This document shows, piece after piece, positions 13,003 through 17,819 of a DNA stretch of 64,000 bases. Source of the DNA: Acidobacteriota bacterium (GTDB lineage: Bacteria > Acidobacteriota > Terriglobia > Bryobacterales > Bryobacteraceae); contig JAFKEE010000017.1 in NCBI GenBank assembly GCA_017307505.1, forward strand, positions 372,001-436,000. The letters run 5' to 3'. Each line of letters begins with the position of its first letter. Position 1 is the first letter of the stretch. Made by a program: the position numbers and the translations under genes. Under the pieces are notes generated by a model, which was given only the letters and a program-made list of their open reading frames with translations, searched no databases and was not told the origin of the DNA.

Positions 13003-14250
13003 ATGTTTCAACCGTTCGAATATCGCGAAGGCGTCCTCTTTTGCGAGGGCGTGGAGCTGTCGAAGATTGCCGACCACGCCGGCACGCCCTGCTACGTCTA
13101 CTCCGCGCGCGCCATTCTCGACCGCTTCCGTTCCTACGACCATGGGCTCTTCGGCATCCCGCACCGCGTTTGCTATGCCGTCAAGGCCAACAGCAACCTC
13201 AGCCTGCTGAATCTCCTCGCCCAGGCCGGCGCGGGCTTCGACATCGTTTCCGGTGGTGAACTGCACCGCGTCCTCAAGGCCGGCGGCGATCCCGCCAAAG
13301 TCGTCTTCTCCGGTGTCGGCAAGACCCGCGAAGAGATCGACTCCGCCCTTCATCTGGGCATCCACAGCTTCAACTGCGAGAGCGAGGCGGAAATCGCTCT
13401 CATCAGCTCCCTCGCCACCCGGCTTGGCAAGACGGCCTCCGTCGCCCTGCGCGTCAATCCCGATGTCGACGCCTCCACTCACCCCTACATCTCCACCGGC
13501 CTGAAAGAGCACAAGTTCGGCATCGACATCGCCGAGGTCGAGGGCGTCTACCAGCGCGCCGCCGCTCTGCCGGGCATCTCGCTCGACGGCGTGAGCTGCC
13601 ACATCGGCTCTCAGTTGCTCGACCCGGCTCCGCTGCTCGAAGCCGCCACCAAGATGCTCGCCCTGGTGGGCCGGCTGCGCGCCAAAGGCATTGAGATCAA
13701 GGAGTTGGATCTGGGTGGAGGCCTGGGTGTGCCCTACCGTGCCGGCGATCCGCGCCCCGACGTCGACACCTTCCTGCGCAAGATCCGCCATCTGGTCGAC
13801 GGCCACAACCTGTTCCTCATGTTCGAGCCCGGCCGCTCCGTCGTGGCCGAAGCCGGAGCCCTCGTGTCCCGTGTCCTCTACCGCAAGAAGAACGGCGCGA
13901 AGGAGTTCGTGATCATCGACGCCTCCATGACGGAACTCATCCGGCCCGCTCTGTACGAGGCCCATCACGAAATCCTGCCCCTGCGGCAGTCCAAATTCGG
14001 CACCGTGGTCGCCAACATCGTCGGCCCGGTCTGCGAAAGCGGCGACTTCCTCGCCGAGAACCGCGAAGTGGCCAATGTCCTGCCCGGCGACCTCATCGCC
14101 GTCATGACCGCGGGAGCCTACGGCTTCGCCATGGCGTCGAACTACAACTCACGCGTCCGGCCGTGCGAGGTTCTGGTGGAGGGCGATACCTGGCGAGTCA
14201 TCCGCCACCGCGAGACGCTGGATGATCTCATTCGCGGGGAAGAACTTTAA
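13003..14250 (+). CDS. lysA: Diaminopimelate decarboxylase
   Basis: A 415-aa PLP enzyme of the alanine racemase fold that decarboxylates meso-diaminopimelate to L-lysine, the last step of the DAP pathway. Visible motifs are CYAVKANSNLSLL (PLP lysine), SGGELHRVLKAG, SCHIGSQLLD, ELDLGGGLGVPY, FEPGRSVVAEAGALV, GPVCESGDFLAE (active-site Cys) and GAYGFAMASNYNSRVRP near the C-terminus. Length is normal. It is the last gene of the rpiB-deoC-phosphatase-lysA run, and its stop overlaps the convergent thioredoxin gene by 4 bases. Confidence 0.96.
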   Translation: MFQPFEYREGVLFCEGVELSKIADHAGTPCYVYSARAILDRFRSYDHGLFGIPHRVCYAVKANSNLSLLNLLAQAGAGFDIVSGGELHRVLKAGGDPAKVVFSGVGKTREEIDSALHLGIHSFNCESEAEIALISSLATRLGKTASVALRVNPDVDASTHPYISTGLKEHKFGIDIAEVEGVYQRAAALPGISLDGVSCHIGSQLLDPAPLLEAATKMLALVGRLRAKGIEIKELDLGGGLGVPYRAGDPRPDVDTFLRKIRHLVDGHNLFLMFEPGRSVVAEAGALVSRVLYRKKNGAKEFVIIDASMTELIRPALYEAHHEILPLRQSKFGTVVANIVGPVCESGDFLAENREVANVLPGDLIAVMTAGAYGFAMASNYNSRVRPCEVLVEGDTWRVIRHRETLDDLIRGEEL

Positions 14251-14720
14251 AGCAGCTTCTTGATCGCCGCTTCCAGTTCGGGGAGGTTCACCTCGCCAAA
14301 GAACGACCGGACCTTCTTCCCGGTCTTGTCGTACAGGAACGAAGCCGGCAGGGCGCCCGTCCACTTGGGGTCGAGGAAGGCGGCGAACTTGTCGTCGTCC
14401 TTGGCCCGGCGGATATAGACGGGAGCCGGCACTTTGGTCTTATCCAGATAAGCGGCGGCGTCTTTCGCCTGCTCCGGTTCGTCGGCCGAGATCGTGGCCA
14501 ACTGGAACCCCTGCGCCTTCAACCGGGCTTCCATGGCCACTAGTTGCGGCATTTCCTTCCGGCAGGGCACACAGTAGGTCGCCCAGAAGTTCACCAGCAG
14601 CACTTTACCCTTGGCCGGCGCCACCACCTTGGCGGTGTAGGTCGCCTCGTCCACAGGTTTCAGGTCGGCCGCCAGCACCGGAACGGCAGCCAGCAGCAGG
14701 GTCAGCAGGATGCGTTGCAT
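14247..14720 (-). CDS. Exported TlpA/ResA-like thioredoxin
   Basis: A 157-aa protein with a signal peptide (MQRILLTLLLAAVPVLA) and one thioredoxin-like domain carrying WATYCVPCRKEMPQ, that is a C-V-P-C redox pair. Such proteins reduce disulphides or thioether precursors in the periplasm, for example in cytochrome c maturation. It lies 10 bases downstream of the next gene on the minus strand, with which it may share a transcript. Confidence 0.85.
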   Translation of the reverse strand: MQRILLTLLLAAVPVLAADLKPVDEATYTAKVVAPAKGKVLLVNFWATYCVPCRKEMPQLVAMEARLKAQGFQLATISADEPEQAKDAAAYLDKTKVPAPVYIRRAKDDDKFAAFLDPKWTGALPASFLYDKTGKKVRSFFGEVNLPELEAAIKKLL

Positions 14721-14730
14721 GGCGCCGTCC

Positions 14731-15111
14731 TCACTTCTTCGCGTCGGACTTCTTCGGCTCGAGCTTGAGGTTCACCACCGCGTCCAGCCGGGTGTCGAAG
14801 ATCGTCAGGGACCGCGTCGGGCTGGCAAACTCCTTGTAGTCCGCCTTCAGCTCGTAGTCGGTGTGCGTCGACAGGTTTTGGAACTGATACTTGCCGCCAT
14901 CCTGCGTGATGAAGGACTTCACCTGCAGGCTCTTGAGGTTCTTCAACTGCACTACGGCGCCCACCGCCGGAGCCCCATCCTCAAGAGAAACAATACCTTC
15001 CACGTTTCTCACGTTCGGGTCGCGCGGCTTTGACTTCTTCTGGTTGGTGAACTGGAAGGCAAACAGCGACGCGGCCAGCAGCGGCATCAGGACAAATAAG
15101 CGGCGATTCAT
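14731..15111 (-). CDS. Secreted carboxypeptidase-regulatory-like domain protein
   Basis: A 126-aa exported protein: signal peptide (MNRRLFVLMPLLAASLFAF), then a single beta-sandwich with the pattern VEGIVSLEDGAPAVGAVVQL and DGGKYQFQNLSTHTDYELKA. This is the carboxypeptidase D regulatory-like fold, very common in acidobacterial surface proteins, where it probably serves binding or assembly. The C-terminus is lysine-rich (LEPKKSDAKK). It belongs to the 14247-15745 minus-strand run and has no catalytic residues. Confidence 0.7.
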   Translation of the reverse strand: MNRRLFVLMPLLAASLFAFQFTNQKKSKPRDPNVRNVEGIVSLEDGAPAVGAVVQLKNLKSLQVKSFITQDGGKYQFQNLSTHTDYELKADYKEFASPTRSLTIFDTRLDAVVNLKLEPKKSDAKK

Positions 15112-15120
15112 GGTGGACTC

Positions 15121-15555
15121 CTATTTCGACTCCGGCCCAGCCCCGGCTTTCAGCTGGAAATACACATCCAACCGGTCCGGACTGTCGTTTACATCGACAA
15201 CCTTCTCTTGTTGGACGTAGCCACGGGCCTTGGCGGTGACAAGATACTGAGCCTTCCGGGGCGGGACGTAGAAGGCGAACTCGCCCCGCGCATCGGAGAC
15301 CAGCTTCTTGGGCTTAGGCGCCTTCATCCCTTCAGGCTTGGTTTTCACCGTAAGGGTTACTTCGGCGCCGGGCAGGGCAAAACCGGGCTCCCGGAACACG
15401 GTTCCAGCAACCACGGCCGATTCAGAGGGCTTGTCTCCGGCTCCGAGCAGGCCGGAAGGCAGTATCGGCGAGAGAACCAGCAGCAGGACAACGGCAATCA
15501 GCCTAGCGCCAATCGTCGTCTTCCTCCTCCTCTTCCTCTTCCTCGTCTTCCTCAT
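15121..15555 (-). CDS. Secreted carboxypeptidase-regulatory-like protein with unusually basic N-terminus
   Basis: A 144-aa protein. After a membrane segment (LIAVVLLLVLSPILPSGLL) comes a single regulatory-like beta-sandwich (VVAGTVFREPGFALPGAEVTL, DARGEFAFYVPPRKAQYLVTA). The first 13 residues (MRKTRKRKRRRKT) are almost wholly basic because they are read from the DNA that encodes the acidic tail of the upstream gene in another frame, over 53 bases. The ATG at 15555 is the only canonical start ahead of the membrane segment. If a rarer codon is used instead (CTG near 15499), the basic stretch would not be made. Its paralogue lies 9 bases downstream. Confidence 0.6.
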   Translation of the reverse strand: MRKTRKRKRRRKTTIGARLIAVVLLLVLSPILPSGLLGAGDKPSESAVVAGTVFREPGFALPGAEVTLTVKTKPEGMKAPKPKKLVSDARGEFAFYVPPRKAQYLVTAKARGYVQQEKVVDVNDSPDRLDVYFQLKAGAGPESK

Positions 15556-15745
15556 CGTCTTCCTCGTCGAACTCCTCGTCGAACTCTTCGTCGTCGAAGC
15601 CTTCGCCGTCAGTTTCCAGTTCGAGGGGATCGACGGACGAGACTACGAAGTTCTTCCCGCATTCTTCACAAAGGACGGATTCGCCTTCGTCCAACTCGTC
15701 CTCTTCAACGTCGATGGCAGCGCCACATTCTGGGCAGTCGATCAT
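15503..15745 (-). CDS. LysW-like zinc-ribbon protein with Asp/Glu tail
   Basis: An 80-aa protein. A CPEC...CEEC zinc ribbon (C4, C7, C26, C29) is followed by NFVVSSVDPLELE, which resembles the amino-group carrier protein LysW (CPECGAEL...VVxLDPLxLE), as I recall it. LysW ends in EDWGE, whose last Glu carries the substrate. Here the tail is about 33 residues almost entirely D and E, ending DDDWR, so the Trp position is echoed but the terminal Gly-Glu is not. The ATG at 15745 has GAGGAG 8 bases upstream. No LysX, LysZ or LysY genes are near, and lysA of the DAP pathway is about 1.3 kb away, so a carrier role is uncertain. Confidence 0.7.
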   Translation of the reverse strand: MIDCPECGAAIDVEEDELDEGESVLCEECGKNFVVSSVDPLELETDGEGFDDEEFDEEFDEEDDEEDEEEEEEEEDDDWR

Positions 15746-16310: not shown

Positions 16311-16937
16311 TCAGACCAGGGAGTTGTGCCGGACGTGCGACAGGAACTCGTCCCGCGAGTCCTTCCGCTGGCGGAAGGCGCCGCGCATGGCCGACGAGGT
16401 CGTCGACGAGTGCTGCTTCTCCACGCCACGCATCATCATGCAGAAATGGCGCGCTTCGGTGATCACCGCCACGCCCACCGGGTCCAGCACTTCCTGCAGG
16501 CACTCGGCGATCTGCTGCGTCAGCCGCTCCTGCACCTGCAGGCGCCGCGCAAACACATCCACCAGGCGCGGGATCTTACTGAGCCCAATGATCTTGTTTT
16601 TGGGGATATAGGCGACGTGCGCCTTGCCGTAGAAGGGCAGCATGTGGTGCTCGCACATCGAGAAGAACTCGATGTCCTTCACCACCACCATCTCGTCGCA
16701 CTTCTCCGTGAAGATCGCGCCGTTGACGATCTTCTCGATATCCGCCGTATAGCCGCTCGTCAGGAACTTCAGCGCCTTCTCGGCCCGCATCGGCGTCGAC
16801 AGGAGCCCTTCCCGCTGCGGGTCTTCCCCTAGCGCGCGCAAGACTTCCTTCATGTTGGCCGCAATGGCCCCCTCGTTACCCGCGGCCTCGAGCCGCTTCG
16901 GTTCAAGAACCTTGACTACAGCTTTCGATGATTTCAT
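16311..16937 (-). CDS. folE: GTP cyclohydrolase I
   Basis: A 208-aa FolE. The enzyme opens GTP to form 7,8-dihydroneopterin triphosphate, the start of folate, queuosine and tetrahydropterin synthesis. Motifs are [40 protein letters not shown] (Zn-binding Cys and His), [20 protein letters not shown], and [11 protein letters not shown] with the second Zn cysteine. The start is put at 16937 ([10 protein letters not shown]), with AGGAAA about 8 bases upstream. It overlaps the end of the upstream PTPS/QueD gene by 35 bases, so translation is probably coupled. The overlapping pterin genes point to one pathway. Confidence 0.95.
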
Positions 16938-17400
16938 CGCGATGACTTTCCTGAGGCGCCGGGACCGGCGCGACCACTTCAAAGATGTTGCGTTTGGTTT
17001 CCCAGATTCTAAGCTTTTCGAACCGGGCCGGATGCCCCGCAAAGGCAATCGGCCAGGCGGCCGCCAGACGCCGTGCCAGCACTTCGGCCAGCACTTCTGT
17101 CGTCGGCACCAGCGTCGCAAACTCCGCCACTTCCAGGTTCAGGTTGCGCCGGTCGAACTGCTTCAGGACCACCGACTCGACAAACTGATCCAGCGCGTCG
17201 ACCGAAACTACACGTCCTCGTGCAGGATCAACCTCCTCGCGCACACAGACGTCCAGGGTGTAATCGTGACCGTGGCCGTAGGGGTTGTTGCATTTCCCGT
17301 AGACTTCCCGGTTCTCCGCTTCGCTCAGCAGGGGAGTGTGCAGGCGGTGCGCGGCCGAGAATCGATAGCGGCGGACCAGACGTACGTCAGGCATGGGCAA
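16903..17400 (-). CDS. PTPS/QueD-family protein A (keeps Cys, lacks the Asp-His histidine)
   Basis: A 165-aa member of the 6-pyruvoyl-tetrahydropterin synthase/6-carboxytetrahydropterin synthase family, which acts on the product of FolE. Zn ligands are visible (His in SAAHRLH and the two in YGHGHDY). The catalytic cysteine is present in [12 protein letters not shown]. The conserved Asp-His of the family (LDHKNL in mammals) is replaced by FDRRNLN, so the His is Arg. The glutamate of the C-terminal WETKRN motif is present. It follows the second paralogue by 8 bases and overlaps folE downstream. Either a divergent QueD or one half of a heteromeric enzyme. Confidence 0.85.
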
Positions 17401-17408
17401 CGCTTAGC

Positions 17409-17819
17409 TTAACGCCCCTCATACTCAACGAAAAGATCGTCGGTCTCATACAGCCGGATAGCGTGCAGCCGTCCGGGTCCCGCCGCAAAGTGCGGCTCCA
17501 GCCGCCGCCAGATCTCCACCGCCAGGTTCTCGGTCGTCGGCACCACGGAATCGAAAGGAGGAACCTCGTGATTGAGGTGGCGGTGATCCATCGGATCCAC
17601 CACTTCCCGCTCCAGAATCTGCTTAACTGCCTTTAGATCCACCACCATACCGGTAACCGGGTCAGGCGCGCCTTCCAGCGTCACTTCCAGCGAATAGTTG
17701 TGGCCATGGCCATGCGGATTCGCGTCGGCGCCATAGAGCGCCGCGTTTTCGGCCTCGGATAAGCCCTGGTTGTAACAGGAATGGGAGGCGGAGAATTCGA
17801 CCTTGCGGGTGATCCACAT
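17409..17819 (-). CDS. PTPS/QueD-family protein B (keeps Asp-His, lacks Cys)
   Basis: A 136-aa paralogue of the preceding protein, closer in length and pattern to animal PTPS (TGMVVDLKAVKQ, PMDHRHLNHEVPPF, VPTTENLAVEIWRRLE, YETDDLFVEYEG). The Zn-binding histidines are present (SASHSC and HGHGHNY). The catalytic cysteine position reads YGADANPHGHGH, so the Cys is Ala. The Asp-His pair is intact (MDHRHLN). It is the first gene of the PTPS-PTPS-folE run, divergent from the TlpA gene with 99 bp between. Confidence 0.85.
   Translation of the reverse strand: MWITRKVEFSASHSCYNQGLSEAENAALYGADANPHGHGHNYSLEVTLEGAPDPVTGMVVDLKAVKQILEREVVDPMDHRHLNHEVPPFDSVVPTTENLAVEIWRRLEPHFAAGPGRLHAIRLYETDDLFVEYEGR

Follow-up and report, generated by a model that had tools for sequence, protein, structure and literature searches.

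A LysW-like zinc ribbon protein with a long acidic tail in Acidobacteriota: a probable non-carrier and candidate docking protein

Introduction

The closest described relative of the protein reported here is LysW, in which the substrate is attached to the gamma-carboxyl group of the last Glu of a terminal EDWGE motif; this terminus is recognised by a GSWGR motif of LysX and ArgX (PMC10433800). Where substrates are carrier-bound, their enzymes set basic residues against the acidic carrier (PMC9303977). A further system that bears on the present locus is LarE, which activates carboxylates and makes thiocarboxylates; the TtuA-TtuB pair provides an earlier example in which a [4Fe-4S] PP-loop enzyme is supplied by a small protein (PMC9283937). 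Among PMC titles and abstract openings, we found no report of an acid-tailed relative of LysW or of a link between LysW and LarE.

Here we describe P0001, an acid-tailed LysW-like zinc ribbon protein of 80 aa encoded in an acidobacterial genome, and compare it with these systems.

Results and Discussion

A LysW-type zinc ribbon with an acidic tail

P0001 is encoded on the minus strand at 15503..15745 of the window (the whole stretch of DNA that was analysed, 64,000 nucleotides), by an ORF with an ATG start and 80 codons, the coordinates including the stop. Its globular zinc-ribbon part, approximately residues 1-45 (15611..15745, minus strand), carries the motifs CPEC at residues 4-7 and CEEC at residues 26-29, then VVSSVDPLELE. 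All four cysteines are invariant in an alignment of 60 members, as are a glycine and a proline (C4, C7, G21, C26, C29 and P40), and over codons 2-44 the dN/dS is 0.043 (28 pairs from 8 same-genus genes); the ribbon is under strong purifying selection. A hyperacidic tail follows (15506..15610, minus strand), ending in DDDWR, with Asp or Glu at 29 of the 37 residues counted. The ribbon, the VVSSVDPLELE stretch and the acidic tail with its DDDWR end had been read from the DNA in the initial annotation and are all present in this 80-residue ORF. The tail had been described there as about 33 almost purely acidic residues; counted here, it has 29 acidic residues in about 37.

The relation to LysW proposed earlier is supported at the level of both sequence and predicted fold. 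P0001 scores 36.8 bits against the Pfam family Zn_ribbon_LysW (PF21344, cut-off 27), a profile that matches all 60 aligned members at E <= 0.01, and the NCBI equivalog lysW (TIGR01206) matches all 62 members of alignment A2 at E <= 0.001. Among PDB sequences, Thermus thermophilus LysW ranks first (E 1.6e-7). In a Foldseek search with the predicted model, matches 1-6 are all LysW chains (probability 0.97-1.00, rmsd 1.0-1.4 A) and match 7 is the ZitP zinc finger (probability 0.60); none reaches an E-value of 0.001 or lower, so that for a fold of 45 residues the matches are weak but consistent. With T. thermophilus LysW (3wwl), P0001 shares the four-Cys ribbon (rmsd of the predicted fold 1.0-1.3 A), the pattern VxxxDPLxLE after it, an acidic end and a Trp near the terminus, as in EDWGE. 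It differs in lacking the terminal Glu, in its much longer acidic tail, and in staying below the TIGR01206 equivalog cut-off (38.6 bits, or 39.2 bits in the genome search, against 53.2). The domain is likewise shared with archaeal ArgW/LysW (NF041070), where P0001 reaches 29.5 bits, below the cut-off of 75.

Other zinc ribbons are more distant. The CxxC-CxxC arrangement is common to FmdB and MJ0042 ribbons, and the TIGR02098 score of 22.1 bits lies just above its cut-off of 20.9, but for FmdB itself (TIGR02605) P0001 scores only 10.3 bits against a cut-off of 31.3, and LysW chains top the fold search. The clustering with FmdB-type ribbons that had been named beforehand as evidence against LysW ancestry was thus not found, and the scores of transcription-type zinc ribbons lie far under that of LysW. 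In a tree built from only 43 columns, from which the larE-linked sequences L241 and L242 were left out owing to a mismatch in domain pattern, the LysX-linked LysW sequences group together (93/90), with three larE-linked sequences and one further LysW (L101) inside the group; most forks are open.

Homologues were found in 74 of 101 relative genomes, with at most one match per genome for the single-protein query, and this distribution together with the dN/dS of the ribbon indicates that the ORF is not a chance one. In family f1, presumably Bryobacteraceae, the gene is present as a single copy in 58 of 61 genomes. It is missing in G013, G049 and G056, the first and last of which are only 84% complete. 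A query with the single protein, rather than a profile, returned no LysW-like gene from the 17 genomes listed for the sister family f3. Any function is therefore not universal. In three f49 genomes, a second, nearly tail-less LysW-like gene occupies a different conserved place (L228, L230 and L232).

Among f1 members the length of the tail ranges from 18 to 45 residues (median 35) and its acidic content from 62 to 85%. Where two same-genus sequences have equal length, Asp and Glu replace each other in 46 changes, against 15 of any other kind. A Trp occupies one of the last two positions in 56 of the 58 f1 members (exceptions L028 and L066); 46 proteins end in Trp followed by Lys, Arg or His, and 8 end in Trp. 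The tail is thus selected as protein, with its charge and Trp retained, whereas the terminal residue itself varies (K, R, H, S, Q, W, Y or E). Outside the family the Trp is less constant: it lies near the end in only two of the ten acid-tailed genes from other Terriglobia families (L060 and L077), and was not kept in 8 of 17 larE-linked genes, as counted by eye. At the nucleotide level, the Shine-Dalgarno-like GGAGG occurs 63 times in the tails, compared with 91.6 (SD 9.1) in synonymous shuffles, and this avoidance argues against the tail being a ribosome-loading device. The AlphaFold2 model, computed from 62 sequences, gives mean pLDDT values of 86-90 for blocks within residues 1-40 and of 55-59 for residues 51-80, the low values pointing to a tail that is probably disordered.

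Loss of the carrier terminus

The seven LysW genes found beside lysX (L100, L102, L103, L224, L226, L234 and L236) all encode the EDWGE end. In contrast, none of the 58 f1 members ends in WGE. LysX exceeded its cut-off in 10 of the 70 genomes searched in all and in none of the 25 f1 genomes among them, and the best hit of the LysX/ArgX search in the genome of P0001 reached 43.4 bits against a cut-off of 275.6. Loss of the carrier terminus, as suggested by the initial annotation, is hence confirmed. Four genomes (G139, G350, G161 and G229) hold both a LysX-linked LysW ending in EDWGE and, separately, an acid-tailed copy, an indication that neither form can stand in for the other.

Lysine and arginine can also be accounted for otherwise in the genome of P0001. 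With 488.8 bits, the lysA gene of the window (13003-14250, plus strand) clears its cut-off of 297.9, and DapF, encoded elsewhere in the genome, scores 189.2 bits against 114.65; together they support the DAP route that had been deduced earlier from lysA. An argJ gene is also present, and no ArgX-type ligase exceeds its cut-off, a further difference from the archaeal ArgW/LysW systems. P0001 is not a working lysine or arginine carrier.

Conservation across f1 combined with loss of the carrier end indicates that the protein has probably taken on a new job. We consider the chances about even that P0001 is an orphan LysW paralogue turned non-carrier docking protein, with the tail as tether and the Trp as anchor. 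The zinc ribbon would supply a docking surface of the LysW type, and the long run of Asp and Glu a flexible tether conserved in charge. In Bryobacteraceae the Trp adjacent to the C-terminus could serve as an anchor, read by a basic pocket of a partner protein, much as the EDWGE terminus of LysW is recognised by LysX. P0001 would then act non-covalently in the cytosol by docking or recruiting. The acidic tip of the bacterial single-strand-binding protein offers a comparison. Docking is the presumed function, and the tail may have a basic partner, as the initial annotation had also proposed.

Possible partners and functions

Outside Terriglobia, larE lies next to or close by the acid-tailed gene in 17 of 25 fetched loci (40 loci minus 4 LysX-linked LysW, 3 second copies and 8 from Terriglobia). 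In a larger sample of 66 genomes, 25 have larE no more than 150 nt downstream in the same orientation, another 7 have it at up to 2.5 kb, and in 34 it lies elsewhere; the 66 are what remains of 99 typed genomes after 33 with no listed larE place were left out. Acid-tailed genes directly before larE were seen in several families (L227, L229, L231, L237-L242, L252-L255 and L261). LarE occurs in 160 of 177 genomes with a LysW-like gene versus 123 of 219 without, figures that are not corrected for kinship. These counts, the three-Cys LarE in the genome of P0001, and the TtuA-TtuB precedent together with the carboxylate activation by LarE (PMC9283937) would fit a role of P0001 as a scaffold, sulfur relay or substrate presenter for LarE, with the pair unlinked in Terriglobia. 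The likeness to TtuB, a small protein that works for a [4Fe-4S] enzyme of the PP-loop type (PMC9283937), is an analogy for the larE-linked relatives, and larE is not directly downstream in the genome of P0001 (contig C65, with the LysW-like gene on C32). Moreover, 17 of the 177 genomes hold the LysW-like gene and no LarE, and all 17 f3 genomes contain LarE but showed no LysW-like gene, so that P0001 is not an obligate LarE partner in Terriglobia. LarC is found in 41 of 45 genomes, and LarE therefore probably serves the nickel-pincer cofactor already. We consider this role for P0001 rather unlikely. Outside Terriglobia, LarE is the best candidate partner.

A broader version would make the acid-tailed LysW-like proteins a phylum-wide class of accessories for ATP-dependent enzymes besides LysX, LarE above all; in the derived form of Bryobacteraceae, the C-terminal Trp would take the place of the loaded Glu as the end that is recognised. 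The old carrier fold would here have found a second use in sulfur insertion, as a partner that is non-covalent or bears a thiocarboxylate. We regard this generalisation as unlikely.

P0001 could also carry another molecule on its C-terminal carboxylate, as the initial annotation had allowed. LysW ancestry would favour such a function, as would two ATP-grasp proteins of the same genome, the RimK-like L007 (TIGR00768, 51.1 bits, below the cut-off of 143.4) and the MvdC/MvdD-like L008. However, their genes lie on contigs C34 and C30, unlinked to the LysW-like gene on C32, the last residue of the tail is not fixed, and no LysX-type ligase was found over the cut-off, so that this proposal finds no support here and has a low probability. 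The LysX search in this genome matched eight loci, four of which were scanned by profile; among the scanned loci one cyanophycin synthetase exceeded its cut-off and a second fell below. L003, L004, L006 and L009 are of biotin-carboxylase and carbamoyl-phosphate-synthase types, as read by eye. Independently of P0001, L008 (G000:C30:83850-84383), which resembles an ATP-grasp peptide maturase and scores 266.5 bits with TIGR04187, below the cut-off of 350, may mark a graspetide cluster, and L002 and L005 (G000:C56) are adjoining cyanophycin-synthetase-like genes.

In Terriglobia the surroundings of the gene are of another kind: after the LysW-like gene come fam3 and fam0, and often a CPISN-type redoxin and TlpA. 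In the window, all on the minus strand, these are fam3 (15121..15555; PF13620, 38.3 bits over 32.3) and fam0 (14731..15111; PF13620, 42.2 bits over 32.3), both of CarboxypepD_reg type with a signal-like start, and a TlpA-type thioredoxin that ends the same gene row (14247..14720; AhpC-TSA, 49.5 bits over 26). From their N-termini, fam3 and fam0 are predicted to be secreted. The fam3 ORF begins within the codons of the acid tail (window 15506-15555) in the +1 frame, in which the acidic codons read Arg and Lys. The most constant Terriglobia neighbour is fam0, which 71 of the 76 named loci contain; among the other five, three (L136, L164 and L180) end less than about 80 bases from the gene and two (L163 and L175) do not. 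A tlpA profile matches in 25 of the 76. Elsewhere in the window (16311-17819), FolE has two consecutive 6-pyruvoyltetrahydropterin-synthase/QueD-type paralogues as neighbours.

This arrangement raises the possibility that P0001 helps the secreted pair by holding basic preproteins before export. Of 154 Terriglobia loci (some genomes counted twice), 148 match both the LysW-like and the fam0 profile, and the net charge of mature fam0 is positive in 141 of the 148; the linked secreted proteins are mildly basic. Against this, the charges of fam0 and the tail do not covary (rho 0.01), and the proteins would be expected in different compartments. All 10 f3 loci read contain the fam3-fam0 pair with no LysW-like match there, so P0001 is not an obligate partner of the pair; fam0-type genes also occur without a LysW-like gene in G338, G378, G049 and G082. 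We hold such a helper function to be improbable. Since f3 keeps both fam3-fam0 and LarE without the LysW-like gene, neither neighbour is obligate, and the absent covariation with fam0, together with a net charge near neutral in ten LarE sequences, makes neither a convincing electrostatic partner.

The same neighbourhood contains traces of how a carrier might lose its ligase. Both f9 genomes concerned (G086 and G094) have the order lysW-lysX-argC-fam3-fam0. In f10, G087 carries lysW (EDWGE)-lysX-argC-fam3-fam0 and a DUF421-like gene, the last named by eye, and in G095 a LysW ending in EEEWEG immediately precedes fam3-fam0, again followed by the DUF421-like gene, with no LysX detected in that genome at E <= 1e-30. 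The G095 LysW (L101) joins that of G087 (L100) in the tree (97/81). In f10, then, a LysW seems to have persisted after its ligase was lost, although this direction of change is inferred.

Zinc ribbons with an acidic tail are a layout met in DNA-mimic and RNA-polymerase-type factors. A corresponding role of P0001 on nucleic-acid machinery, as a DNA mimic or a partner of RNA polymerase, would be in keeping with this layout; it is doubtful given the far lower scores of transcription-type ribbons and the lack of such a neighbour among the conserved clusters. That the tail is a by-product, be it a decaying relic, a stretch for ribosome loading or the other frame of the basic start of the following gene, is very improbable and can largely be excluded: fam3 does start within the tail, and 48 of 58 f1 loci have no stop in the +1 frame along it, but loci in which no fam3 was found have an acidic tail as well (e.g. 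L040, L043, L051 and L071), GGAGG is rarer than in shuffles, and the ribbon dN/dS of 0.043 argues against a relic.

Conclusions

Proteins of this kind can be misnamed as the LysW of lysine biosynthesis, which would imply a pathway that the organism lacks. If the reading of P0001 as a docking protein is true, a carrier fold would have been reused for docking alone across the phylum, and the pair G087 and G095, of the same family and with the same neighbours but with and without lysX-argC, would let a carrier that outlives its ligase be studied. The recurrent larE link in other classes offers a direct biochemical test.
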